DNA from: Fusibacter paucivorans
GTDB lineage: Bacteria; Bacillota; Clostridia; Peptostreptococcales; Acidaminobacteraceae
DNA: 64,000 nucleotides
Assembly: GCF_018390735.1 (NCBI RefSeq)
Contig: NZ_JAHBCL010000021.1
Location: 1 to 64,000, forward strand
Direction: 5' to 3'
Positions within the stretch are counted from its first letter, which is position 1, and the number at the start of each line of letters is the position of its first letter. Below are positions 8,241-31,091 of this stretch, in pieces. Made by a program: the position numbers and the translations under genes. The notes beneath the pieces were generated by a model, which saw nothing but the letters and a program-made list of their open reading frames with translations, ran no database searches and was not told the DNA's origin.

Positions 8241-11200
8241 AACCGATCACATTGACAATCAATGCATTTGGCCCTTATGCAGGAACAGAAGTGCTGGATT
8301 TTTCACTGTTAGCAAATGAAACGCTCTTCCTTATCACCGGACCGACTGGGGCAGGCAAAACATCGATTTTTGATGCCATTTGCTTTGCGCTTTACGGAGA
8401 GACAAATGGAACAGATCGACCTGAAAAGAGTGTTCGATGCGATCATGCTGAAGAGGATCACACAACAGAAGTTACCTTTGCCTTCGAACTCAGATCAAAA
8501 CGCTATACAGTATGGCGCAGACCTAAGCAAATGCGGCCTAAAACGCGTGGAGAAGGGCTGACAGAAGTGCCTTCCGACGCAAACTTGACGATCGAGGGCG
8601 TTGAACGCCCTATTACTGGAAGCAGACAAGTAACAGCTTCAATAGAAGAATTGATAGGACTTACCATCTCGCAATTCCGTCAAATCATGATGATTCCGCA
8701 AGGGGAGTTTAGAGAATTATTAATGGCAAAGTCAGATGATCGTGCAGCGATACTGAGGCATATCTTTAAGACTTCGCTTTACAGCAATATGCAGCGGCAA
8801 GTAGCCGAAGAGAAAAAGCATATAGCAGCTGACCTAAAGGTACAGGATGATGCACTGAATGAAACCATTGATGATATTCGAACTTTTTCGGTTGACCATC
8901 TGCCAAGTGTGAATGCATGCAATGAAATAAATGACGATTGGTTCAATCTGACAGATCAATCGACCTATGAAGAAGAACATGTTGCTACAATTGCGAAGCT
9001 TCTGATAAAAGCCAATGCTGTAATCAATGAACAAAAACAGGCTTCAATTCCCGCATACGAAGTGATTATAGAGCGTCTTCAAAATTTTAATGATAACTTA
9101 CATCAATACATTGGATTAATGGACGAACGTATTCGATTACAGGAAGCAGACTATAAGAAGCGGATTCGAGAGATAGAACGTTATCAAACACAAAATGAAC
9201 AAATCTCCCGATATCGCCAAGCTGTTGCCGATTTAGAGGAACTCGATGCAAAGCGAGACTTAATCAATATAAAGCGAAACGAAGTGATTAATTTAGAAGC
9301 CATTCAAAAAATAATCCCTTTAGAAGCGGAAAGCAATCGGCGCAATGAACGCTTGACATTATGCAGGACACGTATTTTAAATGAAGAACGTATTTGTGAA
9401 ATGAACGGGCAAAAATATGAAGCGGCAAGGCAGGCTTATGAAGCAGCGAATACACCAACCGCAGAAGCAGAACGCCAAAATTTAAAACATACGATTGAAT
9501 CACTGAAAAATTATCAAAAAATATTGGAAAATGTTGAAACATTAAAAGATGAAAGTGCACAGACAAGGCAAGCTTTTAACGAACTGCAAGCAAGAGAAAA
9601 AGAACTGTTGGATAATCAGACTGAAATTGAACAGTCAATTGAAAAATGCCAAAATTATTTACTTCAGCATGAAGGTGATGCACTGAAGGCGCTCGAAATA
9701 AAGCAGTCACTTAATGAAGTGAGTGGACAACTGTCAAAGATTGCATCCGGTATTGAAGCTTATCAGAATATCCGTGAACGCCATAAAAAATGGCTGTCAG
9801 CAAAGGATGAGCTGAAAAGTCAGCATAAACACTGTGACGCTGCTGAGAAAGCATATCATTCATTAAAAATGCGCTATCATCTCAATCAAGCAGCTTATTT
9901 AGCAAGTACGTTGGATGAAAATGCCCCTTGTCCGGTCTGTGGGTCAACATCACATCCTAAAAAAGCCGTTTTAAAAGAGACAGTTGAAATGGCTGATCTC
10001 GAAAGTGCAGAACTGGCACTTACAGCTGCTCAAACTGATTTAAAACAATCTGAATTGACGCTTGAACGGCAACGCGTTAAAATGAAAAATGAATCCGATA
10101 CACTGGCTGCCTATTTGTATGAAATTGATGAAACGATTAAGTGCCCTGCATTTGATAAAATCAATGATTTCGAGACATCTGAAAGTTTGGCAATTCAGCA
10201 AGCGCTAGATGACAGATTGCTGTTTCATCAACGGGCGTATGCTGCATTACAAACGCAGCAAGAAAGCATTCAGCAGGCTTTAAGAGAAGCAGAACGTCAA
10301 AAAGCGATCGTGAAAGATGAAGAAGCCAAGCTGGCTGAAATGAAAATTGCACTTGAGGCACATGAACTCGAAATTTCTGAAAAGCAGCATTTGCTAGAGG
10401 TTAAATCTACGCAGATTGAAACGATGATGGCTTCGATCCCTGAGGCATATCAACCATTAAAGGATACATTGAAAGCGTTGCAATCCAAGCAAACGGAACT
10501 TGATCAGTTGAATGATACACTGACGTTTCTGACACAGGAAGTCGAAATAACGAGAACTGCTTTTAATAGTGCCAAAGAGAATGCGGCTGTTGCAGCAGCA
10601 GCGATTGAGACAGCGAAGATAGAGCAGAAAGAAGCTGAACTGCATTTTCAGGAGGCACTGACAGCACATGACATATCAAGTGAAAGCTACCAAGATCACA
10701 AAGCACACATTGCGACACTTGATGCACTGAAAGCATCGGTAGAAGCTTATGATCGACAGCGATTGATCGTTGAGAATAGTATTAAAGACTTGGAACCTTT
10801 GGCAAAGACGCGTAAACTAGTTGATATTGAAACCTTAGAAAAGAAGGCTGAATCAATAGAACTTATGTATAAGAGTGCTCAGCAAAATAGAGAGAAGTAT
10901 GCAATCGTCGAATATGAGAATGAAGCAGCGCTTATGAAAATGCAAAATATTCTTGAAAAACGCTCATCACTTGAAGCAGCCTATCGTTATGTGGGACAGT
11001 TAGCAGATGTAATGAATGGGAAGAATCGGAAGAACATTACCTTCGAGCGCTATATCTTATCTGCATACTTAAGGGATATTTTAGCGCTTGCCAATGAACG
11101 CTTCCTCGCAATGACTTACGGACGTTACACGCTGCAAATTGCAGAAGAAGTCGCAGACCGACGTCAGGGATCAGGGCTGGATTTAGAAGTGATGGATCGA

Positions 11201-12788: not shown

Positions 12789-13589
12789 TTATTGCTGTGT
12801 TTTAATGTCTTTCGACTTCATATAGCTGTTGGTGAAAGATTTAATAATAACCGATCGAATTTTGTGATACTCCATCTCATTGATGCCCTCAATGGTAATA
12901 CCGGAAGGTGAACATACCAAATCTTTGATAACGGCAGGATGCTGGTGTGTTTCATTCATCATTTCGAGGGTTTGAATCATGATGTTTGAAATGGTTTGAT
13001 AAGAGGGGGTTTCTCTTAAAAATCCAATATGTTCACTGGCATCAACCATGGCGCTTAGAAAGATACCTAAATATGCAGGAATAGAAGCATAGAGTGAGGC
13101 GAAGGCATCACAGACAGTATCGTCAATGTGTTCGATGGTACCAAGTGAAGTCATCAGCATTTCGATATGCTGACGCGCTTCGTCCGAGACTTTATTAAGA
13201 TAGGCAATACCGGTATGGCTGTGAGCGCTCATAATATTGATGTTCGGTATAATGCGGACAACAGGATGCGACATAGATAAGGGAACATGCATGTCTAGCC
13301 AATCGCGGTCAATGCCAACAGTCGTTAAGAGCAATGGTGTTGCCTCTTTAACAAAGGGGAGCATCTGCTGAAGCAGATGTGCCAAATCATTATTTTTTAC
13401 GGCAATGACAATGAGATCACTCGATTCGCAAAGTAATGCCAGCTGCTTAGGTTCGGGATTGATACCTGTGAGCGTTTTCAATTTCGATGGATTTCGATCA
13501 AAACATCTTAAAGAGTGATGCCCAGCTTTACGGCAGCCATGATAAAAAGCGCTGCCGATATTGCCAAGGCCTATGATTCCTATTTTCAT
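12789..13589 (-). CDS. Pyrroline-5-carboxylate reductase-like protein (ProC family)
   Basis: Predicted NAD(P)H-dependent reductase of the ProC family, 266 residues. The N-terminal Rossmann motif is G-I-I-G-L-G-N-I-G-S-A. A V-V-R-I-I-P-N segment matches the family's R-x-M-P-N. The C-terminal signature D-L-V-C-S-P-S-G-I-T-I-E-G is close to the P5CR pattern, with S-G-I-T in place of the usual G-G-T-T. An upstream GTG is discarded because it sits inside the AAGGTGG SD; the ATG is correctly spaced. As last gene of the hypE-hypD operon it should reduce the dehydratase product P5C to proline. The divergent signature leaves open a ComER-like non-catalytic or altered-specificity role. Confidence 0.75.
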   Translation of the reverse strand: MKIGIIGLGNIGSAFYHGCRKAGHHSLRCFDRNPSKLKTLTGINPEPKQLALLCESSDLIVIAVKNNDLAHLLQQMLPFVKEATPLLLTTVGIDRDWLDMHVPLSMSHPVVRIIPNINIMSAHSHTGIAYLNKVSDEARQHIEMLMTSLGTIEHIDDTVCDAFASLYASIPAYLGIFLSAMVDASEHIGFLRETPSYQTISNIMIQTLEMMNETHQHPAVIKDLVCSPSGITIEGINEMEYHKIRSVIIKSFTNSYMKSKDIKTQQ

Positions 13590-13615
13590 AGCGTCCACCT
13601 TTCTTGTCTCGTTAA

Positions 13616-14704
13616 CTAATCCTTGATAAGGATGTCTTTTGGATAATGCGTAATAACAGTCGGTGTTCCGTTTTCCATAATGACGATATCTTCAATACGA
13701 ACACCAAAACGACCTTTGAGATAGATCCCGGGCTCAATCGTAAAGCACATGCGATTATCTAAAGGCAAAGTATTGTAGCCGTTAATGTATGGTCCTTCGT
13801 GATTGGCATAGCCAATGCCGTGTCCAAGTCTAGTAATAAACTGATTACCATAGCCTGCGGCTTCAATGACATGGCGGCCTGCCGTGTCCACATCGCAAGC
13901 TTTTACTTGATTTTTTGAAGCTTCAATGCCCGCCTCATTGGCAGATTTGACAATTTGATAGATTGCTTTCATTTCTTCAGTTGGCGTGCCGACGAAGACG
14001 GTGCGGGTAATATCGGAGCATAACCCTTTATAAAAACCGCCAATATCCATTAAGACGACATCACGGGCTTCAATTGTGCGATCTCGACCGCTATAATGCG
14101 GCAGTGCTGCATTGGGGCCAGTTGCGATAATAGCAAAAGCTGTTGTCATCCCTTGACTTTCGAAAGAAGCCTTTGTGAGATCAATGAGTTCGCCTTCTGT
14201 TACACCGGGTCTAATCGCATCAATAATCTGCGCCATAACCCAATCCGTTCGCTTAGAAGCTTCCTTGAGCATCTGAATTTCTTCATCGGTTTTGTGAAGG
14301 CGAATTTCTTCGAGTATGGAGCGGCCGTTAACGAATTGAATTGGCAATGCTTTTGTCATTTCAATGATATTAAAGGCACGGACTGTGGTATTGACTGCAA
14401 TGATTCCCTGATCAAGTCCCTTGTCTTTAAGAACTTCTAGTAATGGTTCAGTAAATTGTACTTGATCATACCACGTATATACTTTATCGCTGGGCAGAAT
14501 TTCTAGGACTTCATCTCGCGTCAGCAAGTTGCAGAAATAAAAGTAATCACCGTTTTGCTTGATGAACATGCCTTGAAAGCGTTCGCAGAAAAAAGGCAAG
14601 AAACCAAAGAGAAACTGAAGTTCTTCTGATGGTGCAATGAGCATGGCATCAATATGACGTGTTTTCATAATCCGGCATAGTTTGTCAATAAATAGATTAT
14701 TCAT
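13616..14704 (-). CDS. M24 family Xaa-Pro peptidase (prolidase/aminopeptidase P type)
   Basis: Metallopeptidase of 362 residues with the creatinase-type N-terminal domain and the pita-bread catalytic domain. The five metal ligands can be seen in order: D in L-M-D-I-G-G, D in C-S-D-I-T-R-T, H in G-H-G-I-G-Y, E in T-I-E-P-G-I-Y and E in R-I-E-D-I-V. GAGGTGATGTT precedes the chosen ATG; an in-frame ATG 15 bases upstream would place the SD inside the gene. Members cut bonds next to proline. In an operon for hydroxyproline breakdown its likely job is to free proline or hydroxyproline from collagen-type dipeptides (inference). Confidence 0.88.
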   Translation of the reverse strand: MNNLFIDKLCRIMKTRHIDAMLIAPSEELQFLFGFLPFFCERFQGMFIKQNGDYFYFCNLLTRDEVLEILPSDKVYTWYDQVQFTEPLLEVLKDKGLDQGIIAVNTTVRAFNIIEMTKALPIQFVNGRSILEEIRLHKTDEEIQMLKEASKRTDWVMAQIIDAIRPGVTEGELIDLTKASFESQGMTTAFAIIATGPNAALPHYSGRDRTIEARDVVLMDIGGFYKGLCSDITRTVFVGTPTEEMKAIYQIVKSANEAGIEASKNQVKACDVDTAGRHVIEAAGYGNQFITRLGHGIGYANHEGPYINGYNTLPLDNRMCFTIEPGIYLKGRFGVRIEDIVIMENGTPTVITHYPKDILIKD

Positions 14705-14719
14705 AACATCACCTCGCAT

Positions 14720-16345
14720 CTATTTGCCCATAAATGGGTAACGGTAATCTGTTGGCGGACAATAAGTTTCTTTGATTGTGCGAGCAGAAATCCATCGGTA
14801 TAGATTTAGTTTGCTGCCTGCTTTATCGTTGGTTCCTGAAGCACGTCCGCCGCCAAATGGCTGTTGACCGACAACGGCACCTGTTGGTTTATCGTTAATG
14901 TAGAAATTACCGGCAGTCTGAGAGAGCAATTGTTCAAGTTCTACAATTACCTTACGGTCTTCTGCAAAAATAGCACCTGTTAAAGCGTAATCTGAGACAT
15001 CGTTTAAAGACTCAAGTGTTTCAGCTCGCGCCTCATCTTCATAGACGTAGACGGTAAGTACAGGGCCGAAGATTTCTTCACGCATTGAAACGTAGTCCGG
15101 CTTCTTAGCGAGAATTAGCGTTGGTGCAATAAAATAGCCGACAGAGTCGTCATAAGTACCACCTGCAATAATTTCTGCGTCCTCTGATTGTTGCGCATCT
15201 TCAATGTAGCTGACGATTTTTTTGTAAGCCTTTGCATCAATGACAGCATTGACAAAATTTTCAAAGTTTGCAACATCCCCCATTTTTAGTTCTGATATCA
15301 TTGTTTTTGCGCGATCGAGTACAGCGGCAGCAATACTCTTTGGCAGGTATGCACGTGAAGCAGCTGAGCATTTTTGACCTTGGAATTCAAAGGATCCCCT
15401 GACCATGGCGACGGCGAGTGCATCAATGTTAGCAGAGGCATCTGCAAAGATATAATCCTTGCCGCCGGTTTCACCGACGAGTCTCGGATAAGACTTATAT
15501 TGATGAATATTTTCACTGACACTTCGCCACAGCGACTGAAAAACAGCTGTTGAGCCAGTAAAGTGAATGCCGGCTAAGCTCGAATGACTCGTACAAACAT
15601 CAGTAATTTCAGCAGAATTGCCTGGAACGAAGTTGATGACGCCTTTTGGCAGTCCTGCTTCGATAAGAATTTGCATGAAAATATAGTTGGAATAGACAGT
15701 TGTACTAGAAGGTTTCCAGATAACACAATTGCCGAGCATTGCAGGTGCCGTTGGCAGATTGCCGGCAATAGCAGTAAAATTAAATGGCGTTATAGCATAG
15801 ACAAAGCCGTCGAGCGGTCTATATTCTAAGCGATTCCACGTATCCTTAGTACTATTGGGCTGTTCGCTGTAGATTTCGGCGACATATTTTGCATTAAAAC
15901 GCAAGAAGTCTGTGAGTTCGCAGGTTGAGTCAATTTCTGCTTGAAAAGCATTTTTGCTTTGCGTCAGCATTGTTGCCGCATTCAATAGTGCACGGTATTT
16001 TGTTGAAACGAGTTCAGCCGCTTTTAAGAAAATAGCGACACGGTGCTGCCATGGCATGGCTGCCCATTCTTTTTGAGCGGTAAGGCAAGCATCAATTGCG
16101 GCTTTTGTCTCATCAGTGCCGGCTGCATGGTAAAAACCGATCACGTGCTGGTGATCATGCGGCATCGTACAATCCTTTAAATTGCCGGTTTTAACAGCTT
16201 CGCCATTGATAATTAAGGGAATTTCGATTTTTTCTGCTGAAAGCGCCTTTAGTTTGGCTTCTAAGGCAATGCGTTCTGCGGATCCTGGCGCGTAGTCTTT
16301 TACGGGCTCGTTAACAGGGGTGTTCACGTTAAATAATCCATTCAT
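14720..16345 (-). CDS. L-glutamate gamma-semialdehyde (P5C) dehydrogenase
   Basis: Aldehyde dehydrogenase of 541 residues, the length of the PruA/RocA type. Visible motifs are W-x-x-R-L-E-Y-R-P-L-D-G-F-V-Y-A-I-T-P-F-N-F-T-A-I, an F-T-G-S segment, G-E-T-G-G-K-D-Y containing the general-base glutamate, and F-E-F-Q-G-Q-K-C-S-A-A-S-R with the catalytic cysteine. The near C-terminal F-G-G-G-R-A-S-G-T-N-D-K-A-G is the P5C dehydrogenase hallmark. It oxidises P5C semialdehyde to glutamate with NAD. The ATG with GGAGG seven bases upstream is preferred over a start 19 codons earlier. It lies between hypD and the M24 peptidase, giving the oxidative exit from P5C. Confidence 0.92.
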   Translation of the reverse strand: MNGLFNVNTPVNEPVKDYAPGSAERIALEAKLKALSAEKIEIPLIINGEAVKTGNLKDCTMPHDHQHVIGFYHAAGTDETKAAIDACLTAQKEWAAMPWQHRVAIFLKAAELVSTKYRALLNAATMLTQSKNAFQAEIDSTCELTDFLRFNAKYVAEIYSEQPNSTKDTWNRLEYRPLDGFVYAITPFNFTAIAGNLPTAPAMLGNCVIWKPSSTTVYSNYIFMQILIEAGLPKGVINFVPGNSAEITDVCTSHSSLAGIHFTGSTAVFQSLWRSVSENIHQYKSYPRLVGETGGKDYIFADASANIDALAVAMVRGSFEFQGQKCSAASRAYLPKSIAAAVLDRAKTMISELKMGDVANFENFVNAVIDAKAYKKIVSYIEDAQQSEDAEIIAGGTYDDSVGYFIAPTLILAKKPDYVSMREEIFGPVLTVYVYEDEARAETLESLNDVSDYALTGAIFAEDRKVIVELEQLLSQTAGNFYINDKPTGAVVGQQPFGGGRASGTNDKAGSKLNLYRWISARTIKETYCPPTDYRYPFMGK

Positions 16346-16414
16346 TTTGAATCCTCCAATAAATTTTTGATCGTTAAATACGATTGATAGATTGACAGGC
16401 AATTAAAATGAGCA

Positions 16415-18799
16415 TTAAAATGCCTGATGTTCAGTACGGTAAATAATTTCATCCTGAAGTGCCTTTTCCAAATTATTAAAGTGATCGGAGTAGCCAGCGA
16501 CGCGAACGATGAGGTTCGAATAAGCTTCCGGATCTTTTTGCGCTTCTATCAGTAGTGCGCGGTCAATGATATTAAATTGAATGTGATGACCGCCTAATAG
16601 AAAGTAGCTTCGGACAAAAGCACTTAATAAATCAAGGCCTTTTTCACCGGCAACGGCATTAGGTGCGAATTTTTGGTTGAGTAAGGTGCCGCCGGTGATG
16701 GCGTGATCCATTTTTGAAGCTGACTTGATCACGGCAGTTGGACCATTGATATCTGCACCTTTTTCTGGCGAAATACCATCGGGAAGCGGGATATATGCTT
16801 TTCGACCGTTAGCACTGGCACGTGTGACACTGCCAAAGTAAACATGACAGGTGGTTGGCAGCATATCAATACGATAGACACCGCCACAGGCTGTCGGACG
16901 ATTGGTAACGGCATCGTAAAAGAGCTGAAAAGCCTGCTGCATCAAATTGTCAGCATAATCATTATCGTTGCCGTATTTTGGCGTATGTTTAAGGACGCGC
17001 TTATGCAGCATTTCATAACCTTCAAAATTGTGATCAAGTGCTGTCATTAGCTTTTGAAGTGAAAAGTGCTGTTTGTCAAAAACATTGAATTTGATTGCCG
17101 AAAGACTGTCCGCAATCGTGCCAATACCGACGCCCTGAATGTAACGCGTATTATAGCGAGCGCCGCCATTATTGTAGTCCTTGCCGCTTTCAATGCAGTC
17201 GTCAACAATAATGGAAAGGAAGGGGGCTTGCATCTGCTTAGCAAATCGCTTTTCAATGATTTGATTGCCTTCTATTTTGATATCAATTAAATATTGCAGT
17301 TGTCTTTTATAACCGTCGAAAAGCGCATCAAAGGATTCGAATGTCTGACCGTTTTCCAGAATCTTAATTCCAACTTGTTCTTTTGTTTCAAAATCATAAC
17401 CGTTGCTTAGTGTGAGCTCCAGCACTTTTGGCAAATTGAAGTAACCTGTTAGAATATATGCCTCTTTGCCTGCACAGCCGGTTTCAACACACCCGCTGGA
17501 ACCACCGTAAAGTGCATCTTCATAGGATTTTCCGGCATTCATAAGCTCTTGGATGAGTTCTTCAGTATTATAGAAAGCCGGCTGTCCCCATCCCTTGCGT
17601 GAAATTTCACAGGCGCGTTTGATAAAGGCACTTGGTGTTTCGCGGTTGATTTGAACATTTGAACTCGGTTGCAGCAGTTTCATTTCATCCATAACATCTA
17701 AGATGAGAAAAGAAACATCGTTGACGCCGGATTCACCTGTGTTGGGGTTTAGGCCGCCCGTATTGATATTGGCGAAATCGGTGTATGTGGCGCTTTCTTT
17801 TAATGTGACGCCTACTTTTGGCGGTGCAGGTTGATTATTGAATTTGATCCAAAGACATTCGAGCAATTCCTGCGCGCTTTCACGCGTCAAAATCCCTTTG
17901 GCAACATCGTGCTGATAGAAAGGGTAGAGATACTGATCGAGTTTGCCCGGTGAAAAGGCATCCCACGTATTCAGCTCGGTCGTAACGCCAAGGTGGACAA
18001 ACCAGTACATTTGCAGCGCCTGTGCAAATGTTTCGGGTTTGTGTGATGGTACGACACGGCAGTTGGCAGCAATGGCAAGCAATTCTGATTTGCGCTGTGG
18101 GTCATGTTCGGCAGCAGCTTTAGATTCTGCCATTTCGGCATAGCGTTTGCCGAGAAGTATGATGGCATCGCAGGCAATTACCATTGCTTCTAGTTGATCG
18201 CGCTTTTCAACAGCGTCGGAATCATTTAAATAATCGAGTTGTTCGATATGTTTTTCAATGCGTGCTTTAAAATCCAAAAAACCATTGTGGTACATTTTAT
18301 CATCAGCAACAGTGTGTCCAGGTGCGCGTTGCTCCATAAATTCAGTAAAGACACCGGCCTTATAGGCTTTGTGCCAATCAGGCGTCATGTCGCTTAAGAT
18401 TTTATGACGCATGGATTTCTCAGCCCAAAAAGGGATGATTTCCGATGTATGAACAGCTTTATCATCGTCGGAAACTTTGAATGAAATGTATTGGCGCTTA
18501 GACATGATGTCGAGATCTTCAAGTGTATGGCAGCATAAGTCGGGAAAAGTCGGCGCTGACTGCGGAGATTTTCCTTTTTCGCCTACGATGAGTTCGCGAT
18601 CGCCAAAATAAAGTGTTCGAGTTTCCATAAAGCGCTTAAATGCCATAGCACGAAGGATGACAGGCGGTTTAACGCCCATGTACTTTTTATAAATTTCTGT
18701 GTATATAATGGCGCGTTCCATATCGAGACGCGGCTGTGTGCGTGTACTCTTTGCACGCAAATATTGTGTTCTTTTCGTACTGCCTCTGGCGAGTTCCAT
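16415..18799 (-). CDS. hypD: Trans-4-hydroxy-L-proline dehydratase (glycyl radical enzyme)
   Basis: Oxygen-sensitive glycyl radical enzyme that dehydrates trans-4-hydroxy-L-proline to pyrroline-5-carboxylate. At 794 residues it has the family length. The active-site loop reads S-G-C-V-E-T-G-C with C437 and E439, and the glycyl radical loop near the end reads R-V-A-G-Y-S-D-H-F with G769. From memory, long stretches match the Clostridioides difficile HypD sequence closely (for example T-E-F-M-E-Q-R-A-P-G-H-T-V and L-L-E-C-L-W-[IV]-K-F-N-N-Q-P-A-P-P-K-V-G), far more than for pyruvate formate-lyase or choline lyase. The start follows hypE by two bases and its GGAGG overlaps the last hypE codons. 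An alternative dehydratase substrate is possible but unlikely given the neighbours. Confidence 0.93.
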   Translation of the reverse strand: MELARGSTKRTQYLRAKSTRTQPRLDMERAIIYTEIYKKYMGVKPPVILRAMAFKRFMETRTLYFGDRELIVGEKGKSPQSAPTFPDLCCHTLEDLDIMSKRQYISFKVSDDDKAVHTSEIIPFWAEKSMRHKILSDMTPDWHKAYKAGVFTEFMEQRAPGHTVADDKMYHNGFLDFKARIEKHIEQLDYLNDSDAVEKRDQLEAMVIACDAIILLGKRYAEMAESKAAAEHDPQRKSELLAIAANCRVVPSHKPETFAQALQMYWFVHLGVTTELNTWDAFSPGKLDQYLYPFYQHDVAKGILTRESAQELLECLWIKFNNQPAPPKVGVTLKESATYTDFANINTGGLNPNTGESGVNDVSFLILDVMDEMKLLQPSSNVQINRETPSAFIKRACEISRKGWGQPAFYNTEELIQELMNAGKSYEDALYGGSSGCVETGCAGKEAYILTGYFNLPKVLELTLSNGYDFETKEQVGIKILENGQTFESFDALFDGYKRQLQYLIDIKIEGNQIIEKRFAKQMQAPFLSIIVDDCIESGKDYNNGGARYNTRYIQGVGIGTIADSLSAIKFNVFDKQHFSLQKLMTALDHNFEGYEMLHKRVLKHTPKYGNDNDYADNLMQQAFQLFYDAVTNRPTACGGVYRIDMLPTTCHVYFGSVTRASANGRKAYIPLPDGISPEKGADINGPTAVIKSASKMDHAITGGTLLNQKFAPNAVAGEKGLDLLSAFVRSYFLLGGHHIQFNIIDRALLIEAQKDPEAYSNLIVRVAGYSDHFNNLEKALQDEIIYRTEHQAF

Positions 18800-18801
18800 T
18801 A

Positions 18802-19701
18802 TTAACCTCCAATATGTGTATGGTATCCGCTTTGAATGAATTTTTGCTGTATCGCTGTAAGCATTGCTTGATCTGGTGTTTCAAGTGATTCCCCAAGATA
18901 TGGCATGCCAAGTTTCCTGTATTTATGTCCTGAGATATGGTGATACGGCAGTAAAAAAACATCTTTAACGGCAGATTGATTTAGAATGTAAAGGATTTTA
19001 TTTAATTCTTCATCCGTTGTATTCAGTGGTTTGATGAGGGGGATACGTCCCCAGATAGTTACCGGCTGCTGTGAAAGTTTATAGAGGTTTTCTTTGATGA
19101 TATCGTTATAGACACCTGTGTAATGGTGGTGTTTTTTTGAGTCGCCGAATTTTATATCATACATGAATAAATCGACGTAAGGCAGTATTTTTTCAAACTG
19201 CTCGTAAGGGACGTAGCCCGAGGTATCCACTGTGATATGAATATTCGCCGCTTTTAACCGCTTGAGAAGATCAATGAGATAATCGGCGTGAATGAGCGGC
19301 TCGCCGCCTGAAAATGTAACACCGCCGTCAGATGTTTCATAGAAAATACGATCTGCTGTCAATGCTTCATAAAGCGTATCATAGTCATAGGTCTTTCCGA
19401 CGACAGCACGTGCACTCGACAAGCAGTATTCTGTACAGGTTTCACATCCCGTGCAACTGTTTAAGTCTGTTTTGATGCGATCTGCTTCAATGGCTATGCT
19501 TTTGGCAGGACATTGAGCAGCACAGGTGCCGCAATGCGAGCATTTCTGATTATCCCACATAATCTCTCTAGCGGCATTAATACTTTCAGGATTATGACAC
19601 CAGATACAATTTAATGGACAGCCTTTAAAAAAGACTGTGGTTCGAATGCCCGGGCCGTCGTGAATGGAAAATTTTTGAATGTTGAAGATTTGATGTTCCA
19701 T
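18802..19701 (-). CDS. hypE: Glycyl radical enzyme activating enzyme for HypD
   Basis: Radical SAM enzyme of 299 residues that installs the glycyl radical on its partner. The radical SAM cluster motif C-x3-C-x2-C is C28, C32, C35, within F-F-K-G-C-P-L-N-C-I-W-C. A ferredoxin-like insert follows with C-S-H-C-G-T-C-A-A-Q-C-P and C-T-G-C-E-T-C-T-E-Y-C, for two extra 4Fe-4S clusters, as in activases of dehydratase-type glycyl radical enzymes. A D-G-G-V-T-F-S-G-G-E-P motif is also present. It is the first gene after the sigma-54 promoter and lies immediately before hypD, which fixes its partner. Confidence 0.92.
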   Translation of the reverse strand: MEHQIFNIQKFSIHDGPGIRTTVFFKGCPLNCIWCHNPESINAAREIMWDNQKCSHCGTCAAQCPAKSIAIEADRIKTDLNSCTGCETCTEYCLSSARAVVGKTYDYDTLYEALTADRIFYETSDGGVTFSGGEPLIHADYLIDLLKRLKAANIHITVDTSGYVPYEQFEKILPYVDLFMYDIKFGDSKKHHHYTGVYNDIIKENLYKLSQQPVTIWGRIPLIKPLNTTDEELNKILYILNQSAVKDVFLLPYHHISGHKYRKLGMPYLGESLETPDQAMLTAIQQKFIQSGYHTHIGG

Positions 19702-19741
19702 ACATGCCTCTTTTCATTTATTCCAATTGGCATTAAGTATA

Positions 19742-19757
19742 TGCAAAATGCGTGCCA
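19742..19757 (-). promoter_or_regulatory. Consensus sigma-54 promoter of the hyp operon
   Basis: Read on the minus strand the site is TGGCACGCATTTTGCA, a full match to the -24/-12 consensus TGGCAC-N5-TTGCW. It lies about 40 bp upstream of hypE and points into it. An AAA+ sigma-54 activator gene lies just upstream, which supports the call. Confidence 0.93.
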
Positions 19758-19773
19758 AATAGGTTCGTGTTGT

Positions 19774-19787
19774 AAACGAAGCCGTTT
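19774..19787. promoter_or_regulatory. Possible activator binding site (imperfect palindrome)
   Basis: AAACG (19774-19778) and CGTTT (19783-19787) form an inverted repeat upstream of the sigma-54 promoter. A second pair, GATAT and ATATC, lies at about 19797-19818. Either could be an upstream activating sequence. The distance to the promoter is short for such a site, so this is tentative. Confidence 0.3.
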
Positions 19788-19825
19788 CAATGACTTGATA
19801 TGCGTTTGCAGAGATATCACATGAA

Positions 19826-19869
19826 AATGTAAAAAAATTCGTCTTAACAAAGACGAATTTTTTTACATT
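19826..19869. terminator. Strong bidirectional terminator
   Basis: A 19-bp perfect stem (19826-19844 with 19851-19869) closes on the loop TAACAA, with runs of seven A and seven T in the arms. It ends the regulator transcript just before the hyp promoter and so insulates the sigma-54 promoter from read-through. Confidence 0.9.
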
Positions 19870-19872
19870 GGA

Positions 19873-21315
19873 CTAAATATTATCAATATGGCGCTGAACA
19901 CTAATTCCGTGCTGTTTCATTTTATAATGCAGTGTTTGTCTTGGGATTGACAGTCGTTCTGCTGCCTTGACAATGGCATAGCCTTCTGCGTTTAGCGCTT
20001 CTAAAATAATTGTCTTTTCAACGGCTTTCATACGTTCTTTAAGCGATTGTGAAGAAAGTGGTGCCGATGACATCAAGACATCTGGTTGTTTGTGAGATGA
20101 AGGTTTATCACTCGTTATGGTATGGCCGAACGCATTAAACGGCTCTTTCAGACAGCCGATGAAATCATCAGAAGTTAAAAGTGTATTAGAGCTCATGAGA
20201 AAGACGTGCTCAATGGCGTGCTTGAGTTCTCGGATATTACCCGGCCATTCGTACTGCATCAGCATTTGATAAGCACTTTTGCTGATGCTTTTCTTCTGAT
20301 CAGCATAGCGTTCATTAAGGTTTTCTAAAAAATGGGCAGCAAGTACAGGTATATCTTCGCAACGTTCCTTTAGTGGCGGTATGTGAATACTTAGAACATT
20401 GAGTCTGTAATAGAGATCAGCTCTGAGAATGCCATTGTTAATGGCGTAATCAGGTGTAATATTCATTGCGGCGATGATTCGGACATCGACGGCACGTATT
20501 TTATCATCGCCAATTCTTCGAATAGAGCCGTCTTGTATCGCGCGGAGCAGTTTTGCCTGTATGGAAATATCCATAGCGTTTAATTCGTCTAGGAAAAGTG
20601 TCCCACCGTCGGCGAGTTCGAAAAGCCCGGGTGTATTTTTTGATCCCGTAAAACTACCGACAGTTGTCCCAAATAGAATACTTTCCAGCAGTGTGACGGG
20701 AATGGCGGCGCAATTTTGAACGATAAAGGGTTTGTCGCGGCGGTTGCTGAGATGATGAATGCTCTGAACGACGAGTTCTTTGCCGACGCCGGTTTCGCCA
20801 TAGACGATGACAGGCGCATCATTGGCTGCGATCTTACGAACTTTAGATTTAATATCATGGATGGCATTGCTGTTGCCGATCATATGATCGACTTCTGAAA
20901 AAGCATAATCGCGATTTATTCCTTTGACCTCTCGAAGCTGATTTATTTTGTCATTAAAGGATCGAAATTTCTTAACGTCTTTTGAGATTTCAACTGCGCC
21001 GATAATGTGGCCGTTTTCGATAACGGGAAAAGTAGAGGAAAGAATGGTTTTTTCCTCATGACGGTAATTGTAATAATGCTGAATGTAATCAATGACGGGT
21101 TCACCTGTCTTGAGCACTTTCATGAGGGTACTGCTATTTTCGGTGAGTGCGGGAAAGAGTTCAAGCAGCGGTTTATCGATAGCGTCTTCGAAACTGAGAC
21201 CGGCTTGATTATTTAATGAGGCATTGTAAAAGACGACTTTTGCCTGTACGTCGACGATGAAGATGCCATCGTCAATGTGACTTGCAATGGTTTTTAAAAC
21301 GGCTTGATAGTCCAT
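19873..21315 (-). CDS. Sigma-54-dependent activator with PAS domain
   Basis: Enhancer-binding protein of 480 residues. A PAS sensor occupies about residues 1-120 (D-D-G-I-F-I-V-D, then N-N-Q-A-G-L). The AAA+ domain is about 145-375, with Walker A G-E-T-G-V-G-K-E, the sigma-54 contact loop G-S-F-T-G-S in place of G-A-F-T-G-A, Walker B G-G-T-L-F-L-D-E-L and the arginine-finger region. A Fis-type helix-turn-helix ends the protein (A-E-R-L-S-I-P-R-Q-T-L-H-Y-K-M-K). Architecture and contact loop resemble RocR-type activators of amino-acid catabolism. The adjacent consensus sigma-54 promoter makes the hypE-hypD operon its obvious target, perhaps with a proline-related ligand at PAS (inference). Confidence 0.93.
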   Translation of the reverse strand: MDYQAVLKTIASHIDDGIFIVDVQAKVVFYNASLNNQAGLSFEDAIDKPLLELFPALTENSSTLMKVLKTGEPVIDYIQHYYNYRHEEKTILSSTFPVIENGHIIGAVEISKDVKKFRSFNDKINQLREVKGINRDYAFSEVDHMIGNSNAIHDIKSKVRKIAANDAPVIVYGETGVGKELVVQSIHHLSNRRDKPFIVQNCAAIPVTLLESILFGTTVGSFTGSKNTPGLFELADGGTLFLDELNAMDISIQAKLLRAIQDGSIRRIGDDKIRAVDVRIIAAMNITPDYAINNGILRADLYYRLNVLSIHIPPLKERCEDIPVLAAHFLENLNERYADQKKSISKSAYQMLMQYEWPGNIRELKHAIEHVFLMSSNTLLTSDDFIGCLKEPFNAFGHTITSDKPSSHKQPDVLMSSAPLSSQSLKERMKAVEKTIILEALNAEGYAIVKAAERLSIPRQTLHYKMKQHGISVQRHIDNI

Positions 21316-21433: not shown

Positions 21434-21462
21434 TTGACAAAATGACATTAAGTTCATATAAT
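21434..21462 (+). promoter_or_regulatory. Consensus sigma-70 promoter of the XRE-cupin gene
   Basis: TTGACA (21434-21439), a 17-base spacer and TATAAT (21457-21462) match consensus at every base. Transcription should start near 21469, so an in-frame ATG at 21442 lies inside the promoter and cannot be the start of the downstream gene. Confidence 0.9.
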
Positions 21463-21555
21463 TTACACAATATTAATAAAATTGAAGTACAGCTTCAATT
21501 ATTGCACTTATTATACAACTTTTTTAGTGAAATTTGCAATAGGGAGGTGATTAAT

Positions 21556-22095
21556 ATCGATGATATCGGCAAAAAGCTGAAAAAAATCCGTACGGATAAG
21601 AACATCACATTGAAACAGCTTAGTGAAAAAACAAGCTTATCCATTAGTTTTATTTCACAGGTTGAACGCGGCGTGTCATCGCTGACAGTGACATCGCTTA
21701 AAAAAATAGCAGATGCGCTGGGCGTTAGTTTAAATGATGTTGTAACTTATAAAGAAAATGATTCTTACGCTTATAAAAAGGACCATCCTGTTTTTTTACG
21801 CATGCGCAACGATTATGCAAGTCATCAAATCGTCAGTGGAAAATTCGACGGCAAAAAACTGGAAGGAATCATTTTTACCATCGCAGCCAATACGGAAATG
21901 GATTCTTTTGCTCATGAAGGGGAAGAATTTCATTATGTAATTAAGGGAAAGGCAGATTTTTATATTGATGATGTCAAATATGTTGTTGAAGCAGGGGATA
22001 CCATTCATTTTCCCTCGACCATTGATCATAAGATCTGCAATAGTACCGACGACGAGATTGTCATTATGTCTGTTTTGACACCCTCCCTCTTTTAG
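21556..22095 (+). CDS. XRE-family regulator with C-terminal cupin
   Basis: Transcription factor of about 179 residues. An XRE helix-turn-helix spans about residues 5-60 (L-K-Q-L-S-E-K-T-S-L-S-I-S-F-I-S-Q-V-E-R-G), and a small-molecule-binding cupin about 100-175 (H-E-G-E-E-F-H-Y-V-I-K-G, then A-G-D-T-I-H-F-P). Members usually regulate neighbouring transport and amino-acid or polyamine catabolism genes. The start is odd. The GGGAGGTGA SD at 21542-21550 points to ATC at 21556, where the family normally begins M-x-D-I-G-K-K. No ATG exists in frame apart from one inside the promoter; a GTG in frame lies within the SD itself. It probably controls the hyu genes downstream. Confidence 0.88.
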   Translation: MDDIGKKLKKIRTDKNITLKQLSEKTSLSISFISQVERGVSSLTVTSLKKIADALGVSLNDVVTYKENDSYAYKKDHPVFLRMRNDYASHQIVSGKFDGKKLEGIIFTIAANTEMDSFAHEGEEFHYVIKGKADFYIDDVKYVVEAGDTIHFPSTIDHKICNSTDDEIVIMSVLTPSLF

Positions 22096-22146
22096 ACCGG
22101 CCTACGTTCTAAAGACGGTCAACGGTTACCAAAAGGTGGTATGGAA

Positions 22147-22878
22147 ATGCTGAAAATACTTTGGATTAATCCAGTAGGCACCGATCATTACGATGCACCA
22201 TTTTTAGAAGGGTTTAACCAAATTAAGCGTGAGGATACGACAGTCGATGTCGTTTCACTGAAAAATGGACCAACGCATTTGGAGTTTATGTATTATGAAA
22301 CAATGGTGCTCCCGGAAATTCTTTCAATCGTAATGAAAGCGGACCGAGAAGGTTACGATGCGGCCGTTATCGGTTGTTTTTATGATTTGGGGCTGCATGA
22401 AGCGCGTGAAGTGAGCGAAAAGATGGCTATTGTCGCGCCGGAAGAGGCTTGTACAGCACTGGCGGCGACAATGGGACATCGATTTTCAATTATTGTCACA
22501 CGAGATAAGTGTGTGCCGCAAATGGCAAAAAATTTGGCGGAATATGGTCTGAATCACAAATTGGCATCATTTAAATCACTTGCTATAGGGGTGGACGATT
22601 TGCATCAGGATGATGAAACAACTTACAGGCGTATGCTGCAGTGTGCGAAAGAAGCGGTTGTGCAGGATGGTGCAGAGGTAATCGTTCTGGGGTGTACGAT
22701 ACAGTTTGGCTTTTATCAGCGGCTGCAGGAAGAGGTTGGCGTTCCTGTTATTGATGCGGTGGCAGCACCTTTTAAATACGCTGAATATGCCGCTGATATC
22801 AATCGGCAATTTGAATGGCGACACAGTAAAAAGTGTTATTACGAATCGCCAACAGACCTTGCTATGCAAATCAAATGA
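22147..22878 (+). CDS. Asp/Glu/hydantoin racemase family protein
   Basis: Cofactor-independent racemase of 243 residues. The two catalytic cysteines occur in I-G-C-F-Y-D (C77) and L-G-C-T-I-Q (C183), close to the positions I recall for hydantoin racemases (76 and 181). The start M-L-K-I-L-W-I-N-P-V-G is typical for the hydantoin branch. A second ATG, six bases after the first, is preferred because AAGGTGG is seven bases away. Lying ahead of hyuA and hyuB, it would interconvert enantiomers of the ring substrate so that a stereospecific hydrolase can use both. Glutamate or aspartate racemase activity is a less likely alternative. Confidence 0.83.
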   Translation: MLKILWINPVGTDHYDAPFLEGFNQIKREDTTVDVVSLKNGPTHLEFMYYETMVLPEILSIVMKADREGYDAAVIGCFYDLGLHEAREVSEKMAIVAPEEACTALAATMGHRFSIIVTRDKCVPQMAKNLAEYGLNHKLASFKSLAIGVDDLHQDDETTYRRMLQCAKEAVVQDGAEVIVLGCTIQFGFYQRLQEEVGVPVIDAVAAPFKYAEYAADINRQFEWRHSKKCYYESPTDLAMQIK

Positions 22879-23065
22879 GCTTCTGACGTCAGATGAATCC
22901 GTATAGCAAGCAACAGATGAAGCAATATAGAGAGCTGTCATACAACAGCGGAAAGAAAAAAGTACTTCGGAAGACATTATAAGATATTTGAAACACAAGC
23001 GTATTACATTAAAAACAACAGAGCCATAACAGAGACACATCAAGCAGTACGAAAGGGATGATGAC

Positions 23066-23401
23066 GTGAAAATTATCAATGAAAAGGATACGGCAGTACG
23101 AGCATTTGACTTATACGATATGCTCGATGCTTTTAGCGAAAGACTCGACACCTCAGAGGTAAAAATGGGGAAAGCAGTTATGAAGCCGGGGGTTCGTGTG
23201 CCAAAAGAAGGTATGAAACCGCATGTACAGGACGAATTTGCCTATATTATCAAGGGTTCGCTAAAGTCAGGCATTGGTGATCGAGAAACGACGATTTCAG
23301 CTGGGGATTTTAGTTTTATTCCAAAAAACACGCCCCATTGGTCCGAAAATATACTCGATGAAGATTGCGAACTCATTTGGATATTAGTCGGCGAAGCATA
23401 A
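23066..23401 (+). CDS. Small cupin-domain protein
   Basis: A 111-residue single cupin. Motif 1 covers P-H-V-Q-D-E-F-A-Y-I-I-K-G-S-L and motif 2 covers A-G-D-F-S-F-I-P-K-N-T-P-H-W. Possible metal ligands H (in K-P-H-V), E (in D-E-F) and H (in T-P-H-W) are present. It starts with GTG, with AAAGGGA upstream. The stop codon runs into the hyuA SD (TAAGGAGG), so co-translation is likely. Such cupins are enzymes or ligand-binding helpers; the role cannot be assigned, but a step in cyclic-amide metabolism is suggested by position. Confidence 0.75.
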   Translation: MKIINEKDTAVRAFDLYDMLDAFSERLDTSEVKMGKAVMKPGVRVPKEGMKPHVQDEFAYIIKGSLKSGIGDRETTISAGDFSFIPKNTPHWSENILDEDCELIWILVGEA

Positions 23402-23412
23402 GGAGGCAGTCA

Positions 23413-25455
23413 ATGAAAGTTGCAACAGATATTGGCGGTACATTTACAGACATCGTCTATATTGATAAAGCAGGTGAAATCGGTGTTGATAAGGCACATA
23501 CGACACCACCGAATTTTGAAAAGGGTGTTATTGACGTCATTGAAAAGGCGGGTGTTAACACAGCCGCTATTGAAAGTTTTGTACACGGTACAACTGTTAT
23601 TATTAACGCACTGACAGAACGAAAAGGTGCCAAAACGGGTCTTATTACCACGAAGGGATTCCGCGATGTACTGGATATTCAGCGTGGTAATCGTCCCGAT
23701 CTTTTTAATATGCGGTATAAAAAACCAGAATCATTTGTACCGCGCTATCTGAGACATGAAATCAATGAGCGAATCAATTATAAGGGTGAAGTGCTCACAG
23801 ACCTTGATGAAGGCGATGTGCTGCGAGCCATAGCAGCATTAAAAAAAGAAGATGTTGAAGCCGTTGCCGTCGTCTTTTTACATTCCTATATCAATGACGA
23901 ACATGAGCGAAAAGTGATCGATATGATTAAAGCGGAATGGCCGGAAGTCTTTGTGACGGGCTCTTATGAAGTGACAAAGGAATGGCGGGAGTACGAACGT
24001 ACGACAACAGCTGTTTTAAATGCTTTTGTCAAACCCGTTGCAGCAAACTATATTGATAAACTCTACAATAAATTAGAGGCAATTGGCATTGCATCTCCAA
24101 AATACATCATGCAGTCAAATGGCGGGACGACGACTTTTGAAAAGTCTAAAGAAACACCAATCAACATGGTAGAATCAGGACCTGTTGCAGGTATTTTCGG
24201 TTCTGCAATGATAGGCAAGCTCGTCGGTAATGAAAAAGTAATCGGATTTGATGTCGGTGGGACGACGGCGAAGTGTTCTCTTATTGACGGCGGTGAAGTC
24301 AAAGTGACAACAGAATATAAAATCGACCAGACAGATCGTTTTGCAGGTTATCCGATTAAAACACCTGTTGTCGACATCGTAGAAATCGGTAATGGGGGCG
24401 GTTCGATCGCATGGGTTGATGAAGCGGGTTATCTTCGTGTCGGACCGCAATCTGCGGGGGCGCTTCCTGGGCCTGTCGCCTATGGTAAAGGCGGTTCACA
24501 GCCGACGACAACGGATGCCAACCTCGTACTCGGAAGATTATCACCAAAGAATTTCGATATGGATGTCAACATGGATAAAGTCCGTGAATCCGTTGATAAC
24601 ATAGTCGCAAAGCCTTTTGGAATCAGCACGGATGATGCGGCGCTCGGCATTGTACGCATTGCCAATGCCAATATGCTGAATGCATTGAAAATCATCTCCG
24701 TGAGAAAGGGCTATGATCCAAGAGAATTTGCAATGGTAGCCTTTGGCGGCGGCGGCGCGATGCATGCTGCGGCACTTGCAAAGGAACTCGGTGTCAAAAA
24801 AGTCATTATACCGCTGGCTTCGTCAGTATTTTCAGCACTAGGGATGTTAATGACAGATTTGAGACAAGACAATATCAATACATTTAATATCAGAATGGAC
24901 CATATTGATTATGATGCCCTTGAAGCGAAGTGGCAGGAACTTGAGCAAGCTGCAATGGCAGATAATCTTACGAAAGGGATTGCGGCTGAAGATGTTGTCT
25001 TTGTCAGAAATCTCGATATGCGCTACTGGGGACAGGAACATACCGTTAAAGTTCTCGTGCCAAATAAAATGATTTCTGAATCGAATGTCGACGATATTAT
25101 TCAGCGTTTTCATGCAGAGCATGAAAAGGCATATTCTTTTAAAATGGAGGATAGCATGACAGAAATCGTCAACCTCCATCTCGTCACACTTGGTAAGACA
25201 GAAAAAACAACTTTTAAAACCATAGATGCTTACTCAGAAGATACAGAAAGTGCTGTTAAAGAAATCCGCACCGTCCTCTTTGAGGCAGTAGGCAGCGTCG
25301 ATACGAAAATTTACGATTTGGGCGCATTGTTGCCAGGTATGACAGTCAACGGCCCCGCCGTCATTGAAGAACGTTCTTCATCCATAGTCGTTTATCCGGA
25401 TATGGTTGCTGAAAAGGACGTTTACGGCAATATCATCATTAACACGGAGGTATAA
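23413..25455 (+). CDS. hyuA: Hydantoinase/oxoprolinase subunit A
   Basis: ATP-binding subunit of an ATP-dependent cyclic amide hydrolase, 680 residues. The N-terminal phosphate-binding motif is T-D-I-G-G-T-F-T-D (residues 5-13), the second is G-F-D-V-G-G-T-T-A-K near residue 280, and the Hydantoinase_A core has E-S-G-P-V-A-G and G-N-G-G-G-S-I-A. GGAGG precedes the ATG; an upstream in-frame ATG lies inside the cupin gene and is discarded. The next gene, hyuB, begins directly after the stop. The family includes N-methylhydantoinase, 5-oxoprolinase and the acetone/acetophenone carboxylases, so the substrate is not fixed by sequence; racemase and peptide-type transporter neighbours favour a hydantoin or 5-oxoproline. 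Confidence 0.9.
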   Translation: MKVATDIGGTFTDIVYIDKAGEIGVDKAHTTPPNFEKGVIDVIEKAGVNTAAIESFVHGTTVIINALTERKGAKTGLITTKGFRDVLDIQRGNRPDLFNMRYKKPESFVPRYLRHEINERINYKGEVLTDLDEGDVLRAIAALKKEDVEAVAVVFLHSYINDEHERKVIDMIKAEWPEVFVTGSYEVTKEWREYERTTTAVLNAFVKPVAANYIDKLYNKLEAIGIASPKYIMQSNGGTTTFEKSKETPINMVESGPVAGIFGSAMIGKLVGNEKVIGFDVGGTTAKCSLIDGGEVKVTTEYKIDQTDRFAGYPIKTPVVDIVEIGNGGGSIAWVDEAGYLRVGPQSAGALPGPVAYGKGGSQPTTTDANLVLGRLSPKNFDMDVNMDKVRESVDNIVAKPFGISTDDAALGIVRIANANMLNALKIISVRKGYDPREFAMVAFGGGGAMHAAALAKELGVKKVIIPLASSVFSALGMLMTDLRQDNINTFNIRMDHIDYDALEAKWQELEQAAMADNLTKGIAAEDVVFVRNLDMRYWGQEHTVKVLVPNKMISESNVDDIIQRFHAEHEKAYSFKMEDSMTEIVNLHLVTLGKTEKTTFKTIDAYSEDTESAVKEIRTVLFEAVGSVDTKIYDLGALLPGMTVNGPAVIEERSSSIVVYPDMVAEKDVYGNIIINTEV

Positions 25456-27213: not shown

Positions 27214-27263
27214 CGGACGCATTTCACTTAAAATAAAGTATGAAGGAAAATAGGAGGATATGC

Positions 27264-28970: not shown

Positions 28971-28983
28971 AATGAGATAGACC

Positions 28984-29024
28984 CCCTTTGCGAGTGATCT
29001 GCCCGCAAAGGGTATTTCTTTTTA
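28984..29024 (+). terminator. Hairpin after the binding-protein gene (attenuator)
   Basis: CCCTTTGCG (28984-28992) pairs perfectly with CGCAAAGGG (29004-29012), followed by TATTTCTTTTT. As an intra-operon partial terminator it would let the binding protein be made in excess over the permeases and ATPases. Confidence 0.75.
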
Positions 29025-29040
29025 GGTGAGAAAATAGCAT

Positions 29041-29140
29041 CATTCAAATTTTAATCCTTTCACGACAATAAATACGATTTTCAGCATACGAAAGTGCAAC
29101 ATTTTGTCGCGAAGGATCAACGAAAGGTAATGATGCCATT
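29041..29140 (+). repeat. Dispersed intergenic repeat, copy B
   Basis: Second copy of the roughly 100-bp repeat seen at 3254-3361, same orientation. It sits between the hairpin after the binding-protein gene and the first permease gene. The best conserved part is the first 70 bases. It overlaps no gene. Confidence 0.65.
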
Positions 29141-29174
29141 TTCTTAGGTAACAAAGTGCAAAAGGAGGATTTGA

Positions 29175-30185: not shown

Positions 30186-30194
30186 GAGATTACG

Positions 30195-31091
30195 ATGGAA
30201 AATCAAGGAAGAATACACAAAAATACATTTATGAAAGAATCGACAAGAGAAAATATGCGCATGTACTGGTATAAATTCTCTAGAAACAAATTATCTGTTC
30301 TCGGTTTGCTGTTAGTGATCAGCTCCATTGTCATCGCCATCTTTGCGCCTGTTATTGCACCATTTCCACAACACGTAGAAGCATTTGTCGACTATAACAA
30401 CGCAAGCTTAGCGCCAAGCAGCACATACTGGTTTGGAACGGATATTTTTGGGCGCGATATTCTGTCTAGAATCATTTTTGCTTTTCGTGGAGCGCTTTAC
30501 ATGTCGATTATCGTTCTCGCCATCGCAGTACCGGTTGGTACGCTTTTAGGACTGATCGCCGGCTATTTCGGCGGATGGTTTGAGGTGGTTATTATGCGTC
30601 TTACAGACATCTTTTTATCGATACCGGCGATTATTCTGGCGCTTTCGATCGCATCAGTACTAGAACCAAATCTGACGAGTTCTATGATCGCTGTTACAGT
30701 AATGTGGTGGCCTTGGTATACACGCATGGTAGCGGGGATGGCAAAATCTTACTCAAAGGAGTATTTTATCAAAAATGCCGAACTGATCGGTGCTTCAAAG
30801 TTCCATATTTTATTTCGGGAGATCTTGCCAAACTGTATTTCGCCGATTTTGACAAAGATGGCACTGGATGTCGGATGGGTTATGCTCATCGGCGCAACAC
30901 TCAGCTATTGTGGCTTGGGTGAACAGCCGCCAACGCCGGCGTTTGGACAAATGATTTCTGATGGTTCAAAATATATGCCGGACCTATGGTGGATGACTAT
31001 CTATCCGGCAATGGCGATTGCCTATATCATCTTAGGTTTTAATCTTTTAGGTGATGGCATATCCGACATGTTTAACAAAGGGAGACAGTAG
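30195..31091 (+). CDS. ABC transporter permease, DppC/OppC type
   Basis: Second permease, 298 residues. The N-terminal cytosolic W-Y-K-F-S-R-N-K-L-S-V-L-G-L motif precedes the first membrane helix, as in OppC_N proteins. H-W/Y-F-G-T-D-x-x-G-R-D-I-L-S-R appears here as Y-W-F-G-T-D-I-F-G-R-D-I-L-S-R. The EAA-like loop is E-L-I-G-A-S-K-F-H-I-L-F-R-E-I-L-P-N. TAGGAGAT lies before the ATG. It sits in the transporter operon between the DppB-type permease and the first ATPase. Confidence 0.92.
   Translation: MENQGRIHKNTFMKESTRENMRMYWYKFSRNKLSVLGLLLVISSIVIAIFAPVIAPFPQHVEAFVDYNNASLAPSSTYWFGTDIFGRDILSRIIFAFRGALYMSIIVLAIAVPVGTLLGLIAGYFGGWFEVVIMRLTDIFLSIPAIILALSIASVLEPNLTSSMIAVTVMWWPWYTRMVAGMAKSYSKEYFIKNAELIGASKFHILFREILPNCISPILTKMALDVGWVMLIGATLSYCGLGEQPPTPAFGQMISDGSKYMPDLWWMTIYPAMAIAYIILGFNLLGDGISDMFNKGRQ

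Follow-up and report, generated by a model that had tools for sequence, protein, structure and literature searches.

A predicted hydroxyproline operon with an oxidative extension and a sigma-54 switch in Fusibacter paucivorans

Hydroxyproline (Hyp) is an amino acid of collagen. In gene clusters of the type found in Clostridioides difficile, the enzymes HypE and HypD make 1-pyrroline-5-carboxylate (P5C) from Hyp, and a gene for the P5C reductase (P5CR) ProC adjoins them (PMC9044972). Proline serves in this organism as a Stickland acceptor (PMC11574389), and HypD is usually taken to supply a Stickland fermentation based on proline (PMC9044972, PMC11574389). Here we describe a related gene run from Fusibacter paucivorans, located in a 64,000-nucleotide stretch of DNA (contig NZ_JAHBCL010000021.1, positions 1 to 64,000, hereafter the window). 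The run is predicted to be a Hyp operon that adds a peptidase and a sigma-54 switch to this known core chemistry, extends it oxidatively and includes a diverged ProC-like protein. Homology makes the identities of HypD and of the P5C dehydrogenase (P5CDH) firm.

The genes are transcribed from the minus strand in the order activator, hypE, hypD, P5CDH, M24 peptidase and ProC-like protein (Table 1). The last five had been recognized in a first-pass annotation made from the letters alone, and all of them are confirmed here as members of a single minus-strand run. By eye, three likely start codons differ from the listed ones, namely the ATG at 16345 for P5CDH, which has a GGAGG in front, the ATG at 14704 for the M24 peptidase and the ATG at 13589 for the ProC-like protein. 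With these revised starts, the gaps within the five-gene run are all at most 69 nt, and a gap of 171 bp separates the activator gene from hypE. No listed minus-strand terminator-like site falls within the gaps of the run, and from this layout we consider it likely that the five genes form one co-transcribed operon. An Rfam scan of the whole window at gathering thresholds and a tRNA search gave no matches, and the base composition of the three-gene block formed by P5CDH, the M24 peptidase and the ProC-like protein is unremarkable.

The core chemistry is assigned most securely through HypD, which scores 1349 bits against its NCBIfam model (curated cut-off 1100) and finds its best PDB match in 6vxc. 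Residues His160, Asp278, Ser334, Asp339, Phe340, Cys434, Glu436, Tyr450 and Thr645 have been tied to Hyp binding or catalysis (PMC7077986). In the alignment, the protein encoded in the window keeps equivalents of each of these (H160, D278, S334, D339, F340, C434, E436, Y450 and T645) and of the radical glycine G765, and thus all ten listed residues stand at aligned positions. The score above the cut-off and the intact active site support the earlier proposal that this enzyme converts Hyp to P5C, and Hyp can be regarded as its substrate, an assignment that is secure by homology. The adjacent HypE passes the broader model TIGR02494 (328 bits, cut-off 174), and both its CX3CX2C motif, identified by eye, and its gene position fit a HypD activase.

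The oxidative exit from P5C is similarly well marked. The predicted P5CDH scores 772 bits against TIGR01236 (cut-off 614), its residues 17-558 align with solved P5CDHs, and 4idm is its best PDB match. The motifs GQKCSA and GETGGKD, which we take to be the catalytic Cys and Glu motifs of P5CDH, line up with those of 4idm. Together, these features support the route from P5C to glutamate that had been proposed from the first reading of the sequence. A search for the proline dehydrogenase (ProDH) domain gave no match in the F. paucivorans genome, which is 97.5% complete, and the control was positive in 8 of 14 genomes. It is therefore unlikely that P5CDH completes an ordinary proline oxidation pathway here, and HypD is a likely source of its P5C, and the obvious one, besides any others such as ornithine. 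Across 297 genomes of the order to which F. paucivorans belongs, HypD is present in 16 of the 25 that carry P5CDH (F. paucivorans included), versus 74 of the 272 that do not (Fisher p 3.6e-4, a statistic that ignores kinship and genome size).

The intergenic region upstream of hypE carries TGGCACGCATTTTGCA, which is the sole exact match to TGGCACN5TTGCW in the window and bears out the consensus sigma-54 promoter noted at first pass. When one mismatch is allowed, the window holds 4 sites versus 3.48 expected, which is not significant for the motif alone, and the weight is therefore carried by exactness and position. The genome also contains rpoN, and the product of the upstream gene has the PAS, AAA+ (PF00158) and Fis helix-turn-helix (PF02954) domains of an activator, although its best NCBIfam model, PrdR, is matched at 354 bits against a cut-off of 795. 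Given the site, an AAA+/Fis activator and rpoN, the run is predicted to be a sigma-54-dependent operon. Elsewhere, 9 of 80 named loci have an activator homologue in the stretch surrounding hypD. Of 66 loci compared (65 of the named loci plus L148, the other 15 being omitted because hypE is cut, missing or incomplete), 12 carry a sigma-54-like site with two or fewer mismatches upstream of hypE, versus 4.7% of random 350-bp pieces from these loci; among the 9 of the 66 that have an activator gene in the stretch, 7 carry such a site. For the HypD loci of the order the figure is 6 of 85, with 4 of the 6 among the 7 loci that have a near activator, a count that excludes the activators of L148, L154, L179 and L180, which are further off.

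The third component of the run, the M24 protein, combines the M24 domain PF00557 with the creatinase N domain PF01321, is closest to archaeal and bacterial Xaa-Pro dipeptidases, and finds its best PDB match in 1wn1. Five positions, presumably the metal ligands of M24B peptidases, can be aligned by eye. These attributes place it among the M24B Xaa-Pro peptidases, the type to which it had been provisionally assigned. Our survey of the order's loci used chosen thresholds of 300 bits for P5CDH, 60 bits for M24 and 200 bits within 6.5 kb for the activator, and gave an M24 match in 10 of 89 other HypD loci. In six of these the match adjoins, or sits one gene from, hypE or hypD (L184, L193 and L210 at 40-46% identity; L174, L175 and L177 at 26-30%). 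It adjoins hypE upstream in L174, L175, L177 and L193 and lies behind hypD in L210; these placements derive from match position, with open reading frames (ORFs) listed for L184 and L210 only. No M24 match at E 1e-5 was obtained in 20 P5CDH regions, drawn from 24 other P5CDH genomes, a count whose thresholds differ from those used for the HypD loci. Locus L184 (1979-10336) has the order activator, M24 peptidase, SSF symporter, hypE and hypD, and a sigma-54-like site precedes its hypE.

No transporter gene lies within the run, as the first-pass annotation had stated, while other hyp loci include transporter genes of the SSF (L184), SNF (L148) and POT (L032) families. An Opp/Dpp-type ABC transporter is encoded nearby at 27240-33056, where it forms part of a divergent hydantoinase/oxoprolinase run, and it is not assignable to Hyp. 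That run (21442-33056, plus strand) comprises genes for a helix-turn-helix-cupin regulator, an Asp/Glu/hydantoin racemase, a small cupin-like protein (by eye), hydantoinase/oxoprolinase subunits A and B, an ABC binding protein, two permeases and two ATPases.

Table 1. Features of the predicted hydroxyproline operon and its upstream region, in window coordinates.
Feature	Position	Strand	Basis
Activator, PAS / AAA+ / Fis-type sigma-54 enhancer-binding protein; probable operon regulator	19873-21315	-	Pfam PAS_4, PF00158, PF02954; NCBIfam
Inverted repeat, perfect 16+16 nt, TGTAAAAAAATTCGTC-N8-GACGAATTTTTTTACA; candidate enhancer, possibly also activator-gene terminator	19828-19867		
Sigma-54 (-24/-12) promoter, TGGCACGCATTTTGCA	19742-19757	-	Exact consensus match; rpoN in genome
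hypE, radical-SAM activase of HypD	18802-19701	-	NF043069; CX3CX2C motif by eye
hypD, glycyl-radical Hyp dehydratase	16415-18799	-	NF043068; PDB 6vxc; active-site residues
P5CDH, L-glutamate gamma-semialdehyde (P5C) dehydrogenase	14720-16402	-	TIGR01236; PDB 4idm; aligned motifs
M24 Xaa-Pro dipeptidase/aminopeptidase-type peptidase	13616-14719	-	PF00557, PF01321; PDB 1wn1
ProC-like protein, highly diverged P5CR-fold reductase	12789-13598	-	TIGR00112 below cut-off; fold; column count

Taken as a whole, the run is best explained as a Hyp catabolic operon, and we hold this explanation with good confidence. The PAS-type activator would bind upstream, probably at the inverted repeat listed in Table 1, and turn on the sigma-54 promoter in response to a ligand that is probably Hyp or a product. 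The M24 peptidase would release Hyp or Pro from short Xaa-Pro or Xaa-Hyp peptides, HypE would install the glycyl radical of HypD, and HypD would dehydrate Hyp to P5C. Oxidation of P5C by P5CDH would then yield glutamate and NADH, and the glutamate could be fermented or used as a carbon and nitrogen source. For the ProC-like protein, the most likely role is still the reduction of P5C or of a closely related imino acid, by which it may act as an overflow or redox valve.

Several observations count against this explanation or parts of it. HypE reaches 401 bits against NF043069, just under the curated cut-off of 425, although we let its assignment as a protein that works like a HypD activase stand. 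The exact block of P5CDH, M24 peptidase and ProC-like protein was found in the F. paucivorans genome only, and its link to Hyp therefore rests on operon position. The five-gene order, for which a search in other Clostridia had been suggested, recurs neither in the 80 named loci nor in the 89 other HypD loci of the order, two sets that share some genomes and in which many stretches are cut by contig ends; looser gene combinations are present in L032, L148 and L154. P5CDH is mostly not beside hypD, which was found in 2 of the 20 P5CDH regions (L148 and L154), and M24 peptidases are common generally. Finally, the ProC-like protein scores 143 bits against TIGR00112 (curated cut-off 196.75) and keeps 44 of 76 conserved P5CR columns while losing 32, where a conserved column is at least 85% identical among 48 P5CRs.

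The function of this last protein is the point on which two alternative explanations turn. Each of the other 48 P5CRs keeps at least 57 of 76-79 such columns, and the ordinary ProC of the same genome keeps 64 of 78. In a ProC tree of 49 sequences the ProC-like branch is the longest, at 8.96 changes per column, and its position lacks support. Such extreme divergence speaks for a protein that acts on a different substrate (another cyclic imino acid or a keto acid) or whose function is decaying, and the operon would then be purely oxidative, leading from Hyp to glutamate. This is a serious if tentative possibility, and the protein's isolation also speaks for it: among the matches listed for the order's 297 genomes, the best apart from itself has 31% identity and none exceeds 32%, and in 398 genomes of the phylum only the protein itself reaches E 1e-32. 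An ordinary proC (275 bits) is moreover present on another contig, and hence the cell can presumably make proline from P5C without the operon gene. The intact reading frame argues in the other direction, as do the P5CR-dimer domain (PF14748), the GxGNxG-type nucleotide motif and the retention of Val228, Ser230 and Thr235 in the substrate loop. The residues Ser233 and Thr238 of PYCR1 bind a substrate analogue (PMC7560826), and the corresponding Ser and Thr are kept. Changes have occurred from PNTPA to PNINI, from SGS to YAS, and from Thr to Ile at the first position of a TT pair (E. coli Thr235); in a docking model of the E. coli enzyme, proline is held by Val229, Thr235 and Thr236 (PMC12899673).

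The retained residues, together with a P5CR fold and the location of the gene within the run, can also be read as signs of a working P5CR. The operon would then carry out a self-contained disproportionation of two Hyp to one proline and one glutamate, with redox closed inside the operon and proline excreted or used for protein. The fold evidence consists of a structure model that matches PYCR1 with a Z of ~25, versus 18 for the first non-P5CR fold, but since an alignment of P5CRs underlies the model, the match is not independent evidence. Further encouragement comes from the order, in which 60 of the 89 other HypD loci have an ordinary ProC no more than 4 kb downstream from where hypD starts. 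We nevertheless find this second alternative less likely than not, given the score below the cut-off, the long branch and altered motifs, the ordinary proC already present, and the failure to find a D-proline reductase or ProDH that would consume the proline. A search for the D-proline reductase PrdA yielded no candidates in the F. paucivorans genome, while the same search gave ~1000 bits in two other genomes (G056 and G100). With neither PrdA nor ProDH found, proline derived from Hyp would be an end product or a building block rather than a Stickland acceptor. Of the internal Stickland-like exchange envisaged in the first-pass annotation, then, the chemistry is possible and any flux to proline is hypothetical, and the accompanying claim that the ProC-like protein reduces P5C agrees with the fold and substrate residues but not with the family score or degree of divergence. 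We treat a split of P5C between two exits for redox balance as a hypothesis and retain the Hyp catabolic operon as the preferred reading.

A perfect inverted repeat located ~115 bp upstream of the promoter-inferred start site, with arms of 20 nt if extended both ways, is reported here as a candidate enhancer for the activator, along with the recurrence of its half-site in part of one HypD clade. The repeat starts ~5 nt past the activator stop codon and has a strong RNA fold (-22.8 kcal/mol, z -9.28), and it may also, or only, terminate the activator transcript. L004 and L007 have near-identical inverted repeats upstream of hypE, whereas L010, L012, L013 and L028 have single half-sites; in these six named loci the half-site precedes the hypE match by 141-178 nt. 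When a pattern was derived only from the three inverted repeats and the remaining loci were held out, 4 of 63 matched with at most one mismatch versus ~0.5% of shuffles. All four fall, like the window, in a HypD clade of 20 rows, of which they represent 4 of 13 evaluable held-out members. A broader pattern, which is biased in that it was made by viewing sigma-54-bearing regions, gives exact matches only in this clade, and allowing one mismatch adds L075 from outside it. Among the other clade members the half-site is present in 6 of 15 evaluable cases and absent in 9, four further members being non-evaluable. That the repeat is solely the terminator of the activator gene seems unlikely to us, for although its position and fold, the absence of half-site enrichment in its own genome (12 versus 9 for a reversed control, with no further regulon members) and the absence of the half-site (at most one mismatch) from all 85 evaluable upstream regions of the order's HypD loci agree with such a role, the held-out matches exceed the shuffles, no activator gene ends just before the half-site on the same strand in any of the six loci, four of the six lack an inverted repeat of at least 12 nt there, and L004 and L007 have a different hairpin further upstream (by eye).

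Some indication of how the operon arose is provided by G001, the sole other genome of the genus compared (locus L063). Its hypD and the contig-held part of its hypE are 89-90% identical to those of the window. On one unbroken contig, a conserved hairpin (by eye) and then an alpha/beta hydrolase gene come after hypD, with P5CDH, the M24 peptidase and the ProC-like protein absent between hypD and the hydrolase gene. A P5CDH of the window type was not found in this genome at E 1e-100. The three genes have thus been gained or lost here, either together or stepwise, and gain is favoured because members of the related HypD clade lack P5CDH in the vicinity of hypD, although the clade stretches behind this argument are often short. 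In a FastTree analysis of HypD, sampled from the 80 named loci and 31 selected loci of the 89, the window and its same-genus relative form a group (local support 99) with Dethiosulfatibacter and Tissierellia-like bacteria and are separated from the seven other HypDs of their own family in the tree, which suggests horizontal transfer of the hyp core. Separately, the two genomes share an intergenic repeat of 75-110 bp, possibly a small repeat element, which occurs in the window at 29031-29140 with a partial copy near 3240-3315 (83%), and in L063 at 8592-8701 beside an sbcD-like gene (81%).

The presence of P5CDH in a hyp operon, together with the failure to find PrdA or ProDH in the genome, points to a second fate for Hyp, namely as a source of carbon, nitrogen and energy via glutamate. 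In addition, the arrangement of sigma-54 site, activator and inverted repeat offers a testable regulator of Hyp use in Tissierellia-type bacteria. A bolder synthesis would have a Hyp-sensing PAS activator, acting at a conserved inverted repeat within a 'HypR' regulon that PMC6615313 does not name in its main text, switch this one sigma-54 operon in a bacterium that has no PrdA or ProDH and lives on collagen peptides, with P5C split between glutamate and the diverged reductase so that Hyp serves as both electron donor and acceptor; as a complete account we judge this improbable. That main text contains none of the terms 'hydroxyproline', 'glycyl' or 'pyrroline'. Our literature search, whose scope did not extend to Levin 2017 and Huang 2018, found no description of a hypD-P5CDH operon.

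The idea of two exits from P5C is not peculiar to the window, given that HypD, P5CDH and an ordinary ProC are encoded on one strand at three other loci, where the reductive exit is better supported than it is here. These are L032 of Faecalispora jeddahensis JCD and the pair L148 and L154, which represent two genomes (G102 and G091) of one genus within the same order as F. paucivorans. L032 resembles the window in having hypE, hypD, proC, P5CDH (57%) and an M24 peptidase gene within ~12 kb on one strand. It differs in that an ordinary ProC gene directly follows hypD, in that the intervening genes include two ORFs for membrane proteins (ThrE-like by eye), one for a POT-family transporter and one for an amidohydrolase, and in that no activator homologue was found in the stretch. 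L148 and L154 share with the window a PAS-type sigma-54 activator (42-43%), P5CDH (60%), hypE, hypD and proC on one strand, and they have a sigma-54-like site upstream of P5CDH that departs from the consensus at one position. However, their P5CDH gene stands in front, an SNF-family transporter gene and another ORF lie between, the ProC is canonical, no M24 match occurs in the stretch, and no sigma-54-like site with at most two mismatches is located directly upstream of hypE.

Relative to the hypD-proC clusters typified by C. difficile, in which ProC is of the ordinary kind and P5CDH accompanies only 2 of the 60 loci counted in the order (L148 and L154), the window has P5CDH and an M24 peptidase added and a diverged ProC, and PrdA was not found in its genome. 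The regulatory parallel lies with PrdR and other Clostridiales sigma-54 regulons: the activator misses the PrdR model, but the predicted layout shares with these systems an activator and a sigma-54 promoter on Stickland-type amino acid genes, as well as an enhancer in the TGT...ACA style (PMC6615313).

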